Source: Quadrisphaera sp. RL12-1S
Lineage (GTDB): Bacteria; Actinomycetota; Actinomycetes; Actinomycetales; Quadrisphaeraceae
NCBI RefSeq assembly: GCF_014270065.1
Contig: NZ_JACNME010000002.1
Coordinates: forward strand, 434,001 to 498,000
Length of the DNA stretch: 64,000 nucleotides
Direction of reading: 5' to 3'
A model generated the notes under the pieces. The model saw nothing but the letters and a program-made list of their open reading frames with translations. It did no database searches and was not told the DNA's origin. Of this stretch, positions 8,014 through 11,578 are shown one piece after another; the first letter of the stretch is position 1, and each line of letters opens with the position of its first letter. Both the position numbers and the translations under genes were made by a program.

Positions 8014-8044
8014 CCCCGCCGAGGGGGTCCCGCTCAGCGCACAC

Positions 8045-8896
8045 CTACCGGACGCCCAGCAGCTGGGAGGCCGTGACGGCCTGGAGCCCCTTCTGCCGCA
8101 GCCCGTCGAGCACGGCGGGCAGGGCGTCGCGGGTGCCGGCGTGCCCCAGGTGCAGGCTGACGATGGACCCCGGCCGCACCGCGCCCAGCAGGCGGGAGGT
8201 GATGGCCGCCGAGCCCGGGTCGCGGTTGTCCATGGGGTCGACGTCGTACATGAGGCAGGCGCCGTACCCGGCGGCCGTGGCGGCGGCGCGGATCTGCGGG
8301 GTGCTGGCGCTGGTGGCGCTGGGGCGGAACCAGCGCCCGGGCGAGCCGGTGAGGGCCTTGAGCTCGGCGGCGGCGCGCTGCACCTCGGCGGTGGTGTCCG
8401 CGGCCGACAGGGACGGCATGTCGCGGTGGCTCCACGTGTGGTTGCCCAGCTCGTGCCCGTGGTCGAGCAGCAGCTTGGCCATCTGCGGGTCCTCCGCCAG
8501 CCAGGTGCCGATGGCCATCACGGTGATGAGCGCCCCGGCGCTGGCCAGCTCCCGGACCACGTCCTGGGTGATCTTCGGGTCCCCGGCGCCGTGGAAGGTC
8601 AGCGCCACACCGGTGGAGGTGGCGGGGCCGGCGGTGATGTCGGCGCCGGTCGGCACGCCCCCCGTGGCGGAGGAGGAGGACGACGACGACGCTGCCGCCG
8701 ACGACGCTGCCGCTGTCGAGGTGGCGGCGGAGCCGGACGGCGCGCCGGCGGCGCTCGTCGTCGTCGGCTGCTGCTCGCCGGTGGGGGTGCCGTCGGTGCT
8801 GCAGCCCGCGAGCGCGGCGGCTCCCCCGGCCGACAGGGCGGCCAGGGCGGCGAGCGCGGTGCGGCGGCTGGGGCGGGGGGCGGGGGGCTGGCTCAT
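8045..8896 (-). CDS. Polysaccharide deacetylase-fold lipoprotein with altered active-site motif
   Basis: 283 aa. A twin-arginine signal (RR at residues 11-12) ends in a lipobox LAGC with Cys32, so export by Tat and lipid anchoring are expected. A Ser/Thr/Ala-rich linker leads to a NodB-like domain. The second metal motif GNHTWSH is intact (His153, His157), but the first motif, normally TFDDGP, reads TFHGAGDP (99-107): the catalytic/metal Asp pair is replaced by His-Gly. Deacetylation of peptidoglycan or another polymer is therefore uncertain. The ATG overlaps the stop of the beta-propeller gene by 4 bp, so the two act as one unit. Confidence 0.8.
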   Translation of the reverse strand: MSQPPAPRPSRRTALAALAALSAGGAAALAGCSTDGTPTGEQQPTTTSAAGAPSGSAATSTAAASSAAASSSSSSSATGGVPTGADITAGPATSTGVALTFHGAGDPKITQDVVRELASAGALITVMAIGTWLAEDPQMAKLLLDHGHELGNHTWSHRDMPSLSAADTTAEVQRAAAELKALTGSPGRWFRPSATSASTPQIRAAATAAGYGACLMYDVDPMDNRDPGSAAITSRLLGAVRPGSIVSLHLGHAGTRDALPAVLDGLRQKGLQAVTASQLLGVR

Positions 8897-10200
8897 CGCA
8901 TGTTCCCGGTGTGTCCGAGGGAGTGCTGGCCGGGCTGGGGCCAGACCGCCAGGCCGTGGGGGCCGTCGCCGACCTCGATCTTCTTGAGGAGGGAGCCGTC
9001 GGCGGTGGAGATGACGTAGACGACGCCGTCGTAGCGGCCCGACAGCCACAGCTGGCTGCCGTCGGCGCTGACGCCGCCCATGTCGGGCGACCCGCCACCG
9101 GGGATGGGCCAGGTGGCCCTCACGGTGAGGGTGGCGGCGTCGACCACGCTGATGCTGCCCTCGTCGCGGTTGGAGACGTAGAGCACGGAGGCGTCGCGGC
9201 TGGGGTAGATGCCGTGGGCGCCCTTGCCGGTGTGGAGGAACCCGCGGACCTTCTGGGTGGCGGCGTCGATGAGCCAGGTGCCGTTGCGCTGCATGTCGGC
9301 GGCCAGGAAGGTCTTGCCGTCGGGGGCCAGGCGCACGTCCTGCGGCATGGAGCTGACCCCCTTCTCCATCTCCGAGCCGACGCCGCTCATGCGGGCGGCC
9401 ATGGGGTCGTTGGCGCCGGGGGTGGCGATGGCGTTGAGGTCGATGACGGAGCGCACGGCGGAGCCGTCGGTGGGGATGACCAGCAGCTTGCCGCTGAACT
9501 CGCAGGAGGCGAGGAAGAAGCTGCCGTCGGCGCTGAAGTCGGCGTGGTTGACGCCGCCGCACGGCACCGGCAGGGAGTGCTGCAGGGCCATGGTGTGCGG
9601 GTCGCGGAAGTCGATCCGGCGCAGGCGCTCGGCCATGACCATGGCGGAGCTGCCGTCGGGGGTGAAGTAGAGGTTGTACGGGTCGTCCACGGCGACCTTC
9701 TTGCCGACCTGGCCGGTGGTGGGGTCGATCGGGTAGAGGTCGTTGGACAGGTCGTCGTTGACCCAGAGGGTCTTCTCGTCCCAGGAGGGCACCACGTGCT
9801 GCGGCTCGTGGCCCACGGGGAAGCTGCTGAGCACCGCCATGGTGGTGGGGTCGACCACGTCGACGGTGTCGCTCTTGGTGTTGGGGACGTACACCAGCGG
9901 CTTGGCCGTCTTCGCGGTCTCGGAGAGCATCCCGGCACCCGCGCCGGCGTAGACGCCCGCCGAGGACGCCGCGGCCGTGGAGGTGGCGGCCGTCGAGCCC
10001 GGAGCCGCAGGGGCTGACGACGACATCCCCGCCATGCCCGCCATCGACGCGTCGCTGCTGGCGCTGCCGGCCGGGTCGGACCCGGTGGCGCTGCAGCCGG
10101 CGAGGGCGATCAGGAGCGCGGGCACCAGCGCGGGCACGAGCGCGGGCAGCAGGCCCCGGCGGGGCGGGCGGGACGCGCGGGTGCGGGGGGAAGTCCTCAC
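8893..10200 (-). CDS. YVTN-type beta-propeller lipoprotein
   Basis: About 435 aa. The signal peptide ends IALAGC (Cys36), so this is a predicted lipoprotein on the outer face of the membrane. A short linker with MAGMAGM follows, then repeated propeller blades with the pattern VxVVDxxTxxVxxxxPxG (for example VDVVDPTTMAVLSSFPVG and ISVVDAATLTVRATWPIPG). Such propellers usually act as scaffolds or in oxidoreductase-like roles; no catalytic site is evident. GTG 10200 was chosen because it gives a compact signal peptide. An ATG at 10242 is an alternative. The gene is translationally coupled to the deacetylase-like gene downstream. Confidence 0.8.
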   Translation of the reverse strand: MRTSPRTRASRPPRRGLLPALVPALVPALLIALAGCSATGSDPAGSASSDASMAGMAGMSSSAPAAPGSTAATSTAAASSAGVYAGAGAGMLSETAKTAKPLVYVPNTKSDTVDVVDPTTMAVLSSFPVGHEPQHVVPSWDEKTLWVNDDLSNDLYPIDPTTGQVGKKVAVDDPYNLYFTPDGSSAMVMAERLRRIDFRDPHTMALQHSLPVPCGGVNHADFSADGSFFLASCEFSGKLLVIPTDGSAVRSVIDLNAIATPGANDPMAARMSGVGSEMEKGVSSMPQDVRLAPDGKTFLAADMQRNGTWLIDAATQKVRGFLHTGKGAHGIYPSRDASVLYVSNRDEGSISVVDAATLTVRATWPIPGGGSPDMGGVSADGSQLWLSGRYDGVVYVISTADGSLLKKIEVGDGPHGLAVWPQPGQHSLGHTGNMR

Positions 10201-10301
10201 GGCGGCATTGTGGGGGTGCTTCCTGACAGCCGGCAGGCGCATGCGGACGCGGGGTGGCGCGGGCCCGTTCCGGTGGTCTCCCAGGGGTCGTCCGCCCGAC
10301 C

Positions 10302-10358
10302 TGTAGGGATGTGTAGGTGGGTGTAGCGATCCGCTACACAGCCCTACAGACGTGTACA
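10302..10358. promoter_or_regulatory. Symmetric array of six phased TGTA half-sites (operator)
   Basis: TGTA begins at 10302, 10312 and 10322. Its complement TACA ends at 10338, 10348 and 10358. All three pairs share one centre at 10330 and successive sites are exactly 10 bp apart, one helical turn. The inner pair is TGTAGCG-ATC-CGCTACA. The array lies between divergent genes and covers the -35 region of the ATPase promoter. A cooperative operator for a dimeric repressor is the natural reading. Confidence 0.75.
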
Positions 10359-10366
10359 GCTCGGCG

Positions 10367-10372
10367 TACGCT
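10367..10372 (+). promoter_or_regulatory. Leaderless -10 element of the ATPase gene
   Basis: TACGCT, 6 nt before the GTG at 10379. The TGTA array ends 9 bp upstream of it, so a bound regulator should block RNA polymerase. Confidence 0.55.
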
Positions 10373-10378
10373 GCGCCG

Positions 10379-11578
10379 GTGGATCCCGTGGCCAACCCCT
10401 ACGCGCCCGGCGCGGGGCGCACGCCGGCCGCGCTGGTGGGCCGGGACCGGCAGCGCGAGGCGTGGCGGGTGGGCCTGGACCGCGTCGAGCGGGGCCGCAC
10501 GGCGCAGCCCGTGGTGCTCTACGGCCTGCGCGGCGTGGGCAAGACGGTGCTGCTGTCGAGCTTCCGCACGGCCGCGGCGCAGCGCGGCTGGGTGGTGGCC
10601 CAGGTCGAGGCCGGGCGCGGCGGCACCAGCAGCGGGGCGGGGTCGCGCGCGGGGCTGCGGGGCGCGATCGGTGAGGCGCTGCACGTCCCCCTGGTGGACC
10701 TGGCCAGGCCCAGCGCCGGCCGCCGGCTCCTGGCGGCGCTGCGCACGGCGCTGAGCTTCAAGGCCTCCTACGACACCGCCGGCACCTGGAACTTCGGGGT
10801 GGACCTCAGCGAGGCCAGTGGCGGAGGCGCCGACACGGGGGTGTTCGAGGCCGACCTCGCCAAGCTGGTGCGCGACGTGGCCGCGGGCGCCGCCGAGGAG
10901 GGCGTGGGCCTGGCGCTGCTGGTGGACGAGGCGCAGGACGCCACCGCCGACGAGCTGGCCGCGCTGTGCGCGGTCGCCCACGCGGCCGGCCAGCAGGACT
11001 GGCCGGTGCTCGTGGCGCTGGCGGGCCTGCCGAGCCTGCCGCGGGTGCTGGCCGAGGCGAAGTCGTACGCGGAGCGGCTCTTCGTCTACGAGCGGATCGA
11101 GCAGCTGCCGCCGGAGGCCGCCGTGGAGGCGCTCGTGGCGCCGGCGGTGGCCGAGGGCGTCCACTGGACCGACGGCGCGGTGGAGCTGGTGGTGGGCGCC
11201 ACCGGCGGCTACCCGTACTTCCTGCAGCAGTTCGGTCAGGAGTGCTGGAACGAGGCCGAGGGGACCACCATCGCCCACGCCGACGCCCGGGTGGGCGCCG
11301 CTCGCGGCCGGGCCGCCCTCGACGACGGCTTCTTCAGGTCGCGGTGGGACCGCGCCACCACCGCCGAGCAGGCCTACCTGCGGGCGATGGCCGCCGACGG
11401 CGACGCCGGCTCCCCGTCCGGGGAGGTGGCGGCGCGGCTGGGTCGCAAGGTGGCGAGCCTCGGGCCGGCGCGCGCGAGCCTCATCGCCAAGGGCCTCGTC
11501 TACGCCCCCGAGCACGGGGTGGTGGCCTTCACGGTGCCCGGCATGGCCGACTTCATCGAGCGGCAGCCAGCGGGCTGA
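10379..11578 (+). CDS. Orc1/STAND-like P-loop ATPase
   Basis: 399 aa. Walker A GLRGVGKT at residues 49-56 and Walker B LLVDEAQD at about 180-187 belong to the archaeal-type/Orc1-like AAA ATPase group. An Arg-rich sensor region and a C-terminal winged-helix-like segment (SGEVAARLGRKVASLGPARASLIAKG) follow. These proteins often act as regulators or defence/stress switches; the specific role here is unknown. The start was moved from GTG 10352, which lies inside the operator array, to GTG 10379, which is 6 nt after TACGCT. The gene stands alone and its 3' end overlaps the chelatase gene by 26 bp on the opposite strand. Confidence 0.8.
   Translation: MDPVANPYAPGAGRTPAALVGRDRQREAWRVGLDRVERGRTAQPVVLYGLRGVGKTVLLSSFRTAAAQRGWVVAQVEAGRGGTSSGAGSRAGLRGAIGEALHVPLVDLARPSAGRRLLAALRTALSFKASYDTAGTWNFGVDLSEASGGGADTGVFEADLAKLVRDVAAGAAEEGVGLALLVDEAQDATADELAALCAVAHAAGQQDWPVLVALAGLPSLPRVLAEAKSYAERLFVYERIEQLPPEAAVEALVAPAVAEGVHWTDGAVELVVGATGGYPYFLQQFGQECWNEAEGTTIAHADARVGAARGRAALDDGFFRSRWDRATTAEQAYLRAMAADGDAGSPSGEVAARLGRKVASLGPARASLIAKGLVYAPEHGVVAFTVPGMADFIERQPAG

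Follow-up and report, generated by a model that had tools for sequence, protein, structure and literature searches.

A phased, two-sided array of half-sites is the probable private operator of a AAA+ ATPase gene in Quadrisphaera

In the window analyzed here (a 64,000-nucleotide stretch of the Quadrisphaera sp. RL12-1S genome), six short half-sites follow one another along 57 bp with a regularity that raises the question of which gene they serve and which protein might bind them. The array is real and can be read directly at positions 10302–10358 (TGTAGGGATG TGTAGGTGGG TGTAGCGATC CGCTACACAG CCCTACAGAC GTGTACA); it consists of three direct and three inverted half-sites around a dyad at 10330, as seen both in the sequence and in the genus comparison, and has no strand of its own. 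The first three boxes (10302–10306, 10312–10316, and 10322–10326, forward strand) read TGTAG, and the next two (10334–10338 and 10344–10348, reverse strand) read CTACA, which is TGTAG on the other strand. The sixth (10354–10358, reverse strand) reads GTACA within TGTACA and is one base off the five-base half-site common to the other five boxes; in the same-genus genomes G009, G011, and G012, this box is CTACA. These box positions and the dyad bear out a preliminary description of the locus. Its spacing of 10 bp is correct inside each triplet, as measured from TA to TA, and gives way to 11 bp over the dyad (10324 to 10335). The perfect symmetry that it claimed holds for the TGTA/TACA boxes and is lost in the rest of the window array: 14 of the 15 pairs in the five-base boxes are complementary versus 5 of the 13 remaining pairs, and a repeat search returns 33-nt arms that are 73% complementary. 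The array of G009 is complementary at 15 of 15 box pairs and at 12 of 13 remaining pairs. Among the four arrays of the genus, 29 of the 30 box columns are invariant, against 12 of the 27 columns outside the boxes.

The array precedes a gene for an ATPase of 399 residues (10379–11578, forward strand), whose in-frame GTG start at 10379 lies 6 nt past a candidate −10 element, TACGCT (10367–10372, forward strand); the predicted transcript would be leaderless. The TA of this element is 12 bp past the TA of the sixth half-site. Because a sigma-70 consensus scan finds no promoter at the array or the ATPase start, the assignment of TACGCT depends on comparison with relatives. The array had been proposed to lie at a leaderless ATPase promoter; that it belongs to the ATPase promoter stands, with the promoter itself being a prediction made in this indirect way. 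The leaderless state is not general in the family, since a possible Shine-Dalgarno-like GAGG precedes the start in some plasmid loci. Because no −35 element is recognizable at the ATPase promoter, activation by a bound protein is conceivable, in which case the ATPase or another protein on the array would substitute for the absent −35 contacts and turn the promoter on. Such an activator site would fit the failure to find a sigma-70-type promoter and the fixed distance of 12 bp between the last half-site and the −10 TA in 68 of 80 loci (the best 80 of 581 relatives), and activation has a precedent among STAND regulators in MalT, which activates other genes. Nonetheless, the last half-site falls within the −35/−10 spacer, a position at which bound proteins usually obstruct polymerase, and we consider activation unlikely.

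Comparison of six genomes of the genus indicates whose element the array is. An intact ATPase orthologue is found in four of the six, and the same four, and no others, carry the array. The orthologues in G009, G011, and G012 are 93–96% identical, and their upstream regions keep the same boxes at the same spacing, the loss of which from orthologues the preliminary description had named as the outcome that would speak against it. G010 has neither the ATPase gene nor the array, and the interval there from the WYL-type gene (window ∼8019) to cbiX (window 11596) is 99 bp. In G008, a natural deletion (L018, G008:C14:83672-83823) has left only a C-terminal stub of the ATPase frame, its last residues now fused to a decayed array.

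The preliminary description also placed the array near a divergent lipoprotein pair. The lipoprotein gene (window 8935–10203) has no orthologue in G011 or G012 and is reduced to a 32-residue trace in G009, while the array persists in all three; G008 and G010 contain lipoprotein matches of 28–35% elsewhere in the genome, which resemble other beta-propellers. The homologous block in G011 and G012 opens exactly where the array does, without a lipoprotein gene before it, and the gap from the preceding homologous block to the array is 84 bp in G011 and 74 bp in G012. With three genomes retaining the array without an intact lipoprotein gene, the divergent lipoprotein was rejected as target or partner. 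Because the array tracks the intact ATPase gene and persists without the lipoprotein gene, sequence comparison assigns it to the ATPase gene, at whose own promoter is found the conserved operator expected of an autoregulated DNA-binding protein. The lipoprotein/deacetylase pair occupies a segment (window 8020–10298) that is absent in G011 and G012, with a trace in G009; either the window acquired this segment or the other genomes lost it.

The site is also private to this gene. When at most three of its 24 fixed bases may mismatch, the array pattern has a single match in the 4.6-Mb genome, and the 10-bp-phased TGTA pattern is found nowhere else in it. Within the genus, the same pattern matches once, with 0 mismatches, in each of the four genomes that carry the array and not at all in G008 or G010; a reversed control pattern has no match in any of the six. 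A half-array pattern (at most two mismatches) has 10 matches, all at the ATPase locus, nine of them on the four arrays and the tenth on the decayed G008 array, and its control pattern has two, one in G009 and one in G010. A second ATPase in the same genome (the paralogue L015) has a different array (CTTGACAGGATTAGC...GCTAATCCTGTCAAG); of the six genus genomes, G000 (at G000:C1:69024-69078) and G008 contain it once each and the others not at all. Across 12 genomes of other families, the motif TCTAGC-N5-7-GCTAGA occupies 12 places, 8 of them upstream of an ATPase and 4 elsewhere.

As to what might bind the array, the ATPase gene is the sole gene that always adjoins it. Among the best 80 of 581 relatives, the commonest non-overlapping ORF cluster besides the ATPase is present in 24 of 80 loci, and no constant partner is found among the annotated neighbors of 19 plasmid loci. 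A linked regulator or toxin–antitoxin-like partner was therefore rejected, as none is constant in either set. The TGTA and TACA half-sites are a point of likeness to the operators of BlaI/MecI/CopY regulators, and BlaI sites have the form TACA-N2-TGTA. Between 10290 and 10380 there is no TACA-N2-TGTA, the order being TGTA ahead of TACA, which vindicates the earlier remark that the arrangement is not that of BlaI/MecI; the relatives of the array use TCTA, CTTA, TATAC, and other boxes, and the two genes with a BlaI-type domain (PF03965) are located on other contigs (C10 and C6), neither beside the array. On these grounds a BlaI/MecI-type site was rejected. A separate, unlinked transcription factor with the ATPase gene as its single target would be compatible with the presence of these two BlaI-type regulators elsewhere in the genome and with the indirect nature of the case for any particular binder. 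Such a factor is rather unlikely: the letters of its site would have to shift in step with each ATPase lineage, the site would have to persist on plasmids that lack the factor, no regulator gene is linked among the best 80 of 581 relatives, and each genome contains a single site.

The relatives indicate what is general about the array. Named loci were taken from the best 80 of 581 relatives, and they appear to share one plan, with short boxes placed once per helical turn and usually inverting near the promoter, in arrays that range in size from 2+2 to 4+3 boxes. In the sister genus (L006–L009, ATPase 45–46% identical), the boxes are GTCT/AGAC; L012, L016, L021, L033, L035, L036, and L038 each have a different spaced palindrome ahead of the start, and the promoters of the 80 named loci carry TCTAG/TCTAC boxes. 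The Bifidobacteriaceae locus L053 has AATCTATG, AATCTATG, AATCTATG, and AATCTGTG, followed by CATAGATT, CATAGATT, and TATAGACT. Relative to the presumed −10 TA, TA steps occur at −12 in 68, at −24 in 59, at −34 in 51, and at −44 in 44 of the best 80 of 581 relatives. With the expectation corrected for the 6.6-fold higher TA density of these regions, the same 80 loci contain 160 TA pairs at 10 bp versus 50 expected and 152 at 12 bp versus 71 expected (uncorrected expectations, 1.1 and 1.6). A subset of the main group of promoters (59 of 84) was selected by TA at both −12 and −24; its information content is concentrated in the boxes, with almost none in the bases between.

Three further observations concern the relatives. 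L012 (G003:C1) encodes an ATPase relative interrupted by an in-frame TAG and has a strong 55-bp palindrome upstream. The box words drift far, to GATCTCCC/GGGGAGATC in L224 and L226 (Clavibacter plasmids) and TTTA/TAAA in L175–L178 (viral contigs). A conserved GACAC(G) lies at −54 to −47 from the −10 TA in main-group promoters, just ahead of the first box, and the same element is central in the L008/L009 palindrome.

Phasing was then scored by lag tests that take no account of symmetry and that were chosen only after the sequences had been inspected. Clustering at 55% identity removed close relatives, grouping 179 of 181 loci into 34 clusters, each represented by one upstream region; the two loci left out had a frame of <330 residues or <90 bp upstream. 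The partial viral loci L214 and L215 were left out, L012 was excluded from protein alignments with its upstream region retained, the plasmid loci comprised 19 of 95 records, and the controls were 96 upstream regions of annotated neighbor genes at plasmid loci. In the 34 representatives, 79 recurrences of a four-base word, irrespective of its letters, were counted at a distance of exactly 10 bp versus 11.9 expected, the maximum of 500 shuffles being 26; the counts at other lags are 25 at 9 bp, 9 at 11 bp, and 34 at 20 bp (10.0 expected), and the 96 controls give 37 at 10 bp versus 38.7 expected. Of the 34 representatives, 21 have at least one such word at lag 10 and 13 have none; of the 96 controls, 23 have at least one. 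TA pairs at lag 10 number 45 in the 34 clusters versus 13.9 expected (P 0.001) and 11 in the controls versus 12.2 expected. The 17 chromosomal clusters (19 versus 3.7 expected, P 0.0005) and the seven plasmid clusters (18 versus 4.9 expected, P 0.003) each show this excess, and the ten viral clusters by themselves do not reach significance (8 versus 5.7, P 0.21). Individually, 10 of 12 actinobacterial and 1 of 7 proteobacterial plasmid loci have P<0.05, suggesting that phasing is clear in Actinobacteria and weak in Proteobacteria. Orthologous promoters are not independent of each other.

Symmetry is distributed differently. Of 123 loci, 24 have a gapless inverted-repeat score that stands out from the windows of their own locus (p<0.05; median p 0.42); this score was too strict to serve as a general test and was replaced by the lag tests. 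Phasing at 10 bp is therefore general and the full palindrome is not. On present sequence comparisons, perfect symmetry belongs to this genus, and the phasing is the general feature of most relatives. The observation as a whole holds and is stronger than a reader of the sequence alone could have known. A palindrome could also act as a DNA or RNA hairpin, as a cruciform, terminator, or leader structure, and the strand does fold better than its shuffles (z −2.52), the G009 palindrome is near-perfect, and several Micromonosporaceae have, farther upstream, a palindrome that resembles a terminator, T tail included. Against this, conservation resides in the boxes (29 of 30 columns versus 12 of 27 others), the array precedes the predicted start of the leaderless transcript, and the innermost between-box pairs of the 59 main-group promoters are complementary at or below chance (9 versus 17.0, 6 versus 12.1, 11 versus 18.3, and 18 versus 18.4). 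The box conservation and the between-box pairing led us to reject the hairpin, which we regard as very improbable.

The features of the ATPase itself are compatible with a role as the binder. Its match to Pfam AAA_16 (PF13191) scores 63.7 bits, above the curated cut-off of 32.6, and this model matches at E≤0.01 in all 30 family members tested. The match to TIGR02928 (Orc1/Cdc6) is restricted to residues 15–62 and, at 20.6 bits, is far under the cut-off of 181.3; weak matches to this model and to ORC subunit 4 occur in the family. No nSTAND model matches the window ATPase at E≤0.01, and the best single model matches 5 of 30 relatives. The PADLOC defense models likewise assign it to none of their families, with a weak DrmD match in one distant relative, and a known anti-phage defense system was rejected on the lack of a PADLOC match for the window ATPase. 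The C-terminal 90 residues (11306–11575, forward strand) may form a winged-helix DNA-binding region, as suggested by sub-threshold matches: three of six C-terminal regions tested match Fe_dep_repress (0.0034), MarR (0.11), HTH_27 (0.11), and HVO_A0114 (0.23), all below cut-off, and the other three have no winged-helix match. A PDB search with this region finds DNA-binding proteins at 0.07 and 0.43 (best E 0.07), the MarR model matches one of 30 family members, and on a Rhodococcus fascians plasmid one fragment carries the annotation MarR-type winged-helix regulator. After 72 loci not fitting the pattern were dropped, a proline in the predicted recognition helix accompanies TCTA in 82 of 86 loci, and a valine mostly accompanies TGTA (6 of 11, with 1 against and 4 level); this covariation is suggestive only, because nearly all proline loci belong to one orthologous group.

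We favor, with a probability of about 0.6, a reading in which the array overlies the upstream half of a leaderless promoter as a private operator and the winged-helix-like C-terminal region of the ATPase binds it, probably for autorepression. Phased rows with differing letters precede many relatives, on chromosomes and on plasmids; from this, each ATPase would seem to bind at and regulate the gene that encodes it. The ATPase would contact the array through its C-terminal region. Since the boxes are one turn apart and in the same direction, its subunits may pack side by side, one half-site per helical turn and on one face of the DNA; the inversion at the dyad would have two such rows meet head-on. 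The nucleotide state of the ATPase might play a role in this oligomeric binding. Repression is to be expected because the last half-site is only 12 bp from the −10 TA, and a bound row reaching the −10 element would most likely block RNA polymerase, so that the ATPase would repress itself and keep its own level constant. The new stacked-dimer repressor envisaged in the preliminary description is then not needed as a separate protein, because the best 80 of 581 relatives have no other linked gene in common and a winged-helix-like region is present at the C terminus of the ATPase; what had been taken for its site becomes a phased operator that members of a AAA+ ATPase family keep to their own genes, probably for autoregulation.

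ATPase relatives occur in 32 of 296 genomes of the phylum (E≤1e-20), on 95 of 72,556 plasmid records, and at 41 loci in viral contigs; the closest plasmid relatives, 69–70% identical, are on Arthrobacter, Paenarthrobacter, and Pseudarthrobacter plasmids. Judged from these occurrences, the family is patchy and partly mobile. It may have diverged and moved between replicons with each ATPase retaining its own box sequence on the same 10-bp plan. This distribution, the weak ORC-like matches (TIGR02928 and ORC subunit 4) of a AAA+ protein, and the case of one Sphingobium plasmid with a ParA gene 1.3 kb downstream would also suit a site used mainly for a DNA transaction such as replication, partition, or transposition, with gene control being secondary. 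This we consider improbable, given that the window copy occupies a fixed chromosomal place among ordinary genes, that the conserved position relative to the −10 element suits a promoter element, and that partition and replication genes are not constant neighbors at the best 80 of 581 relatives or the plasmid loci. More speculatively, and with little expectation that it will hold in full, the family could be one of mobile ORC-like AAA+ proteins in which each lineage has its own two-sided phased address beside the gene, at which the ATPase would assemble into a filament with lineage-specific recognition; the row might then double as an operator and an ORB-like or parS-like assembly site. If so, several family members could share one cell without cross-talk.

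Known systems offer partial parallels. STAND regulators such as MalT and AfsR combine an ATPase with a DNA-binding domain and multimerize on repeated sites. The window ATPase resembles them in its ATPase, its putative DNA-binding domain, and its repeated sites, and differs in its length of 399 residues, in having no recognized sensor repeats, and in matching nSTAND models in at most 5 of 30 family members. Orc1-2 of Saccharolobus islandicus is reported to be an ORC-like AAA+/winged-helix regulator that binds promoters, requires both domains, and is not a replication initiator (PMC9738581). The arrangement of an N-terminal AAA+ domain, a C-terminal winged helix (predicted here), and promoter binding is thus similar, whereas Orc1-2 is described there as a global DNA-damage regulator and the site here is private to the ATPase gene; the low TIGR02928 score (20.6 bits, cut-off 181.3) also sets the window ATPase apart. 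The Streptomyces protein BldC (PMC5859096) is a winged-helix protein that binds 9-bp direct repeats head to tail, and so shares with this system repeats about one helical turn long and variable in number. BldC is MerR-like, pleiotropic, and of 68 residues with no ATPase (PMC5859096), and the window array has a 10-bp period, two facing rows, and a single target. The ORC-type ATPases of the BrxC/BREX kind also place a winged helix (predicted here) after an ORC/Cdc6-type AAA+ domain and are large multidomain proteins within defense operons (PMC12839542), unlike the window ATPase, which has neither a PADLOC match nor linked genes. A search of the open-access literature, outside which most subscription papers lie, returned no description of the ATPase family or of the array.

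Should the favored reading be correct, an uncharacterized ATPase family would gain a concrete, testable activity in sequence-specific DNA binding, and the candidate site of each member could be read directly off its genome. The natural series of arrays could reveal how a winged-helix AAA+ protein lays its subunits on DNA and how its specificity changes, and would show whether bacterial ORC-like proteins act as regulators.

Other repeats lie farther upstream in some relatives. In L090, L099, L106, L110, L116, L118, L122, and L124, the region ∼−126 to −78 before the ATPase start contains a further palindrome (such as AAAACTAGGGCTGTCTAGC-N6-GCTAGACAGCCCTAGTTTT) that is built on the same TCTAGC half-site and carries a T tail; it could act in termination, as an additional operator, or in both ways. 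L081, L089, and L107 have comparable second arrays without the T tail. Large inverted repeats, unrelated to the boxes, are found at ∼−217 to −92 before the ATPase start in L006 (CGACTTCGCTGCCGAAGTCG) and in L008 and L009 (GTGAAGGTGACGCCCCCTTCACG-type).
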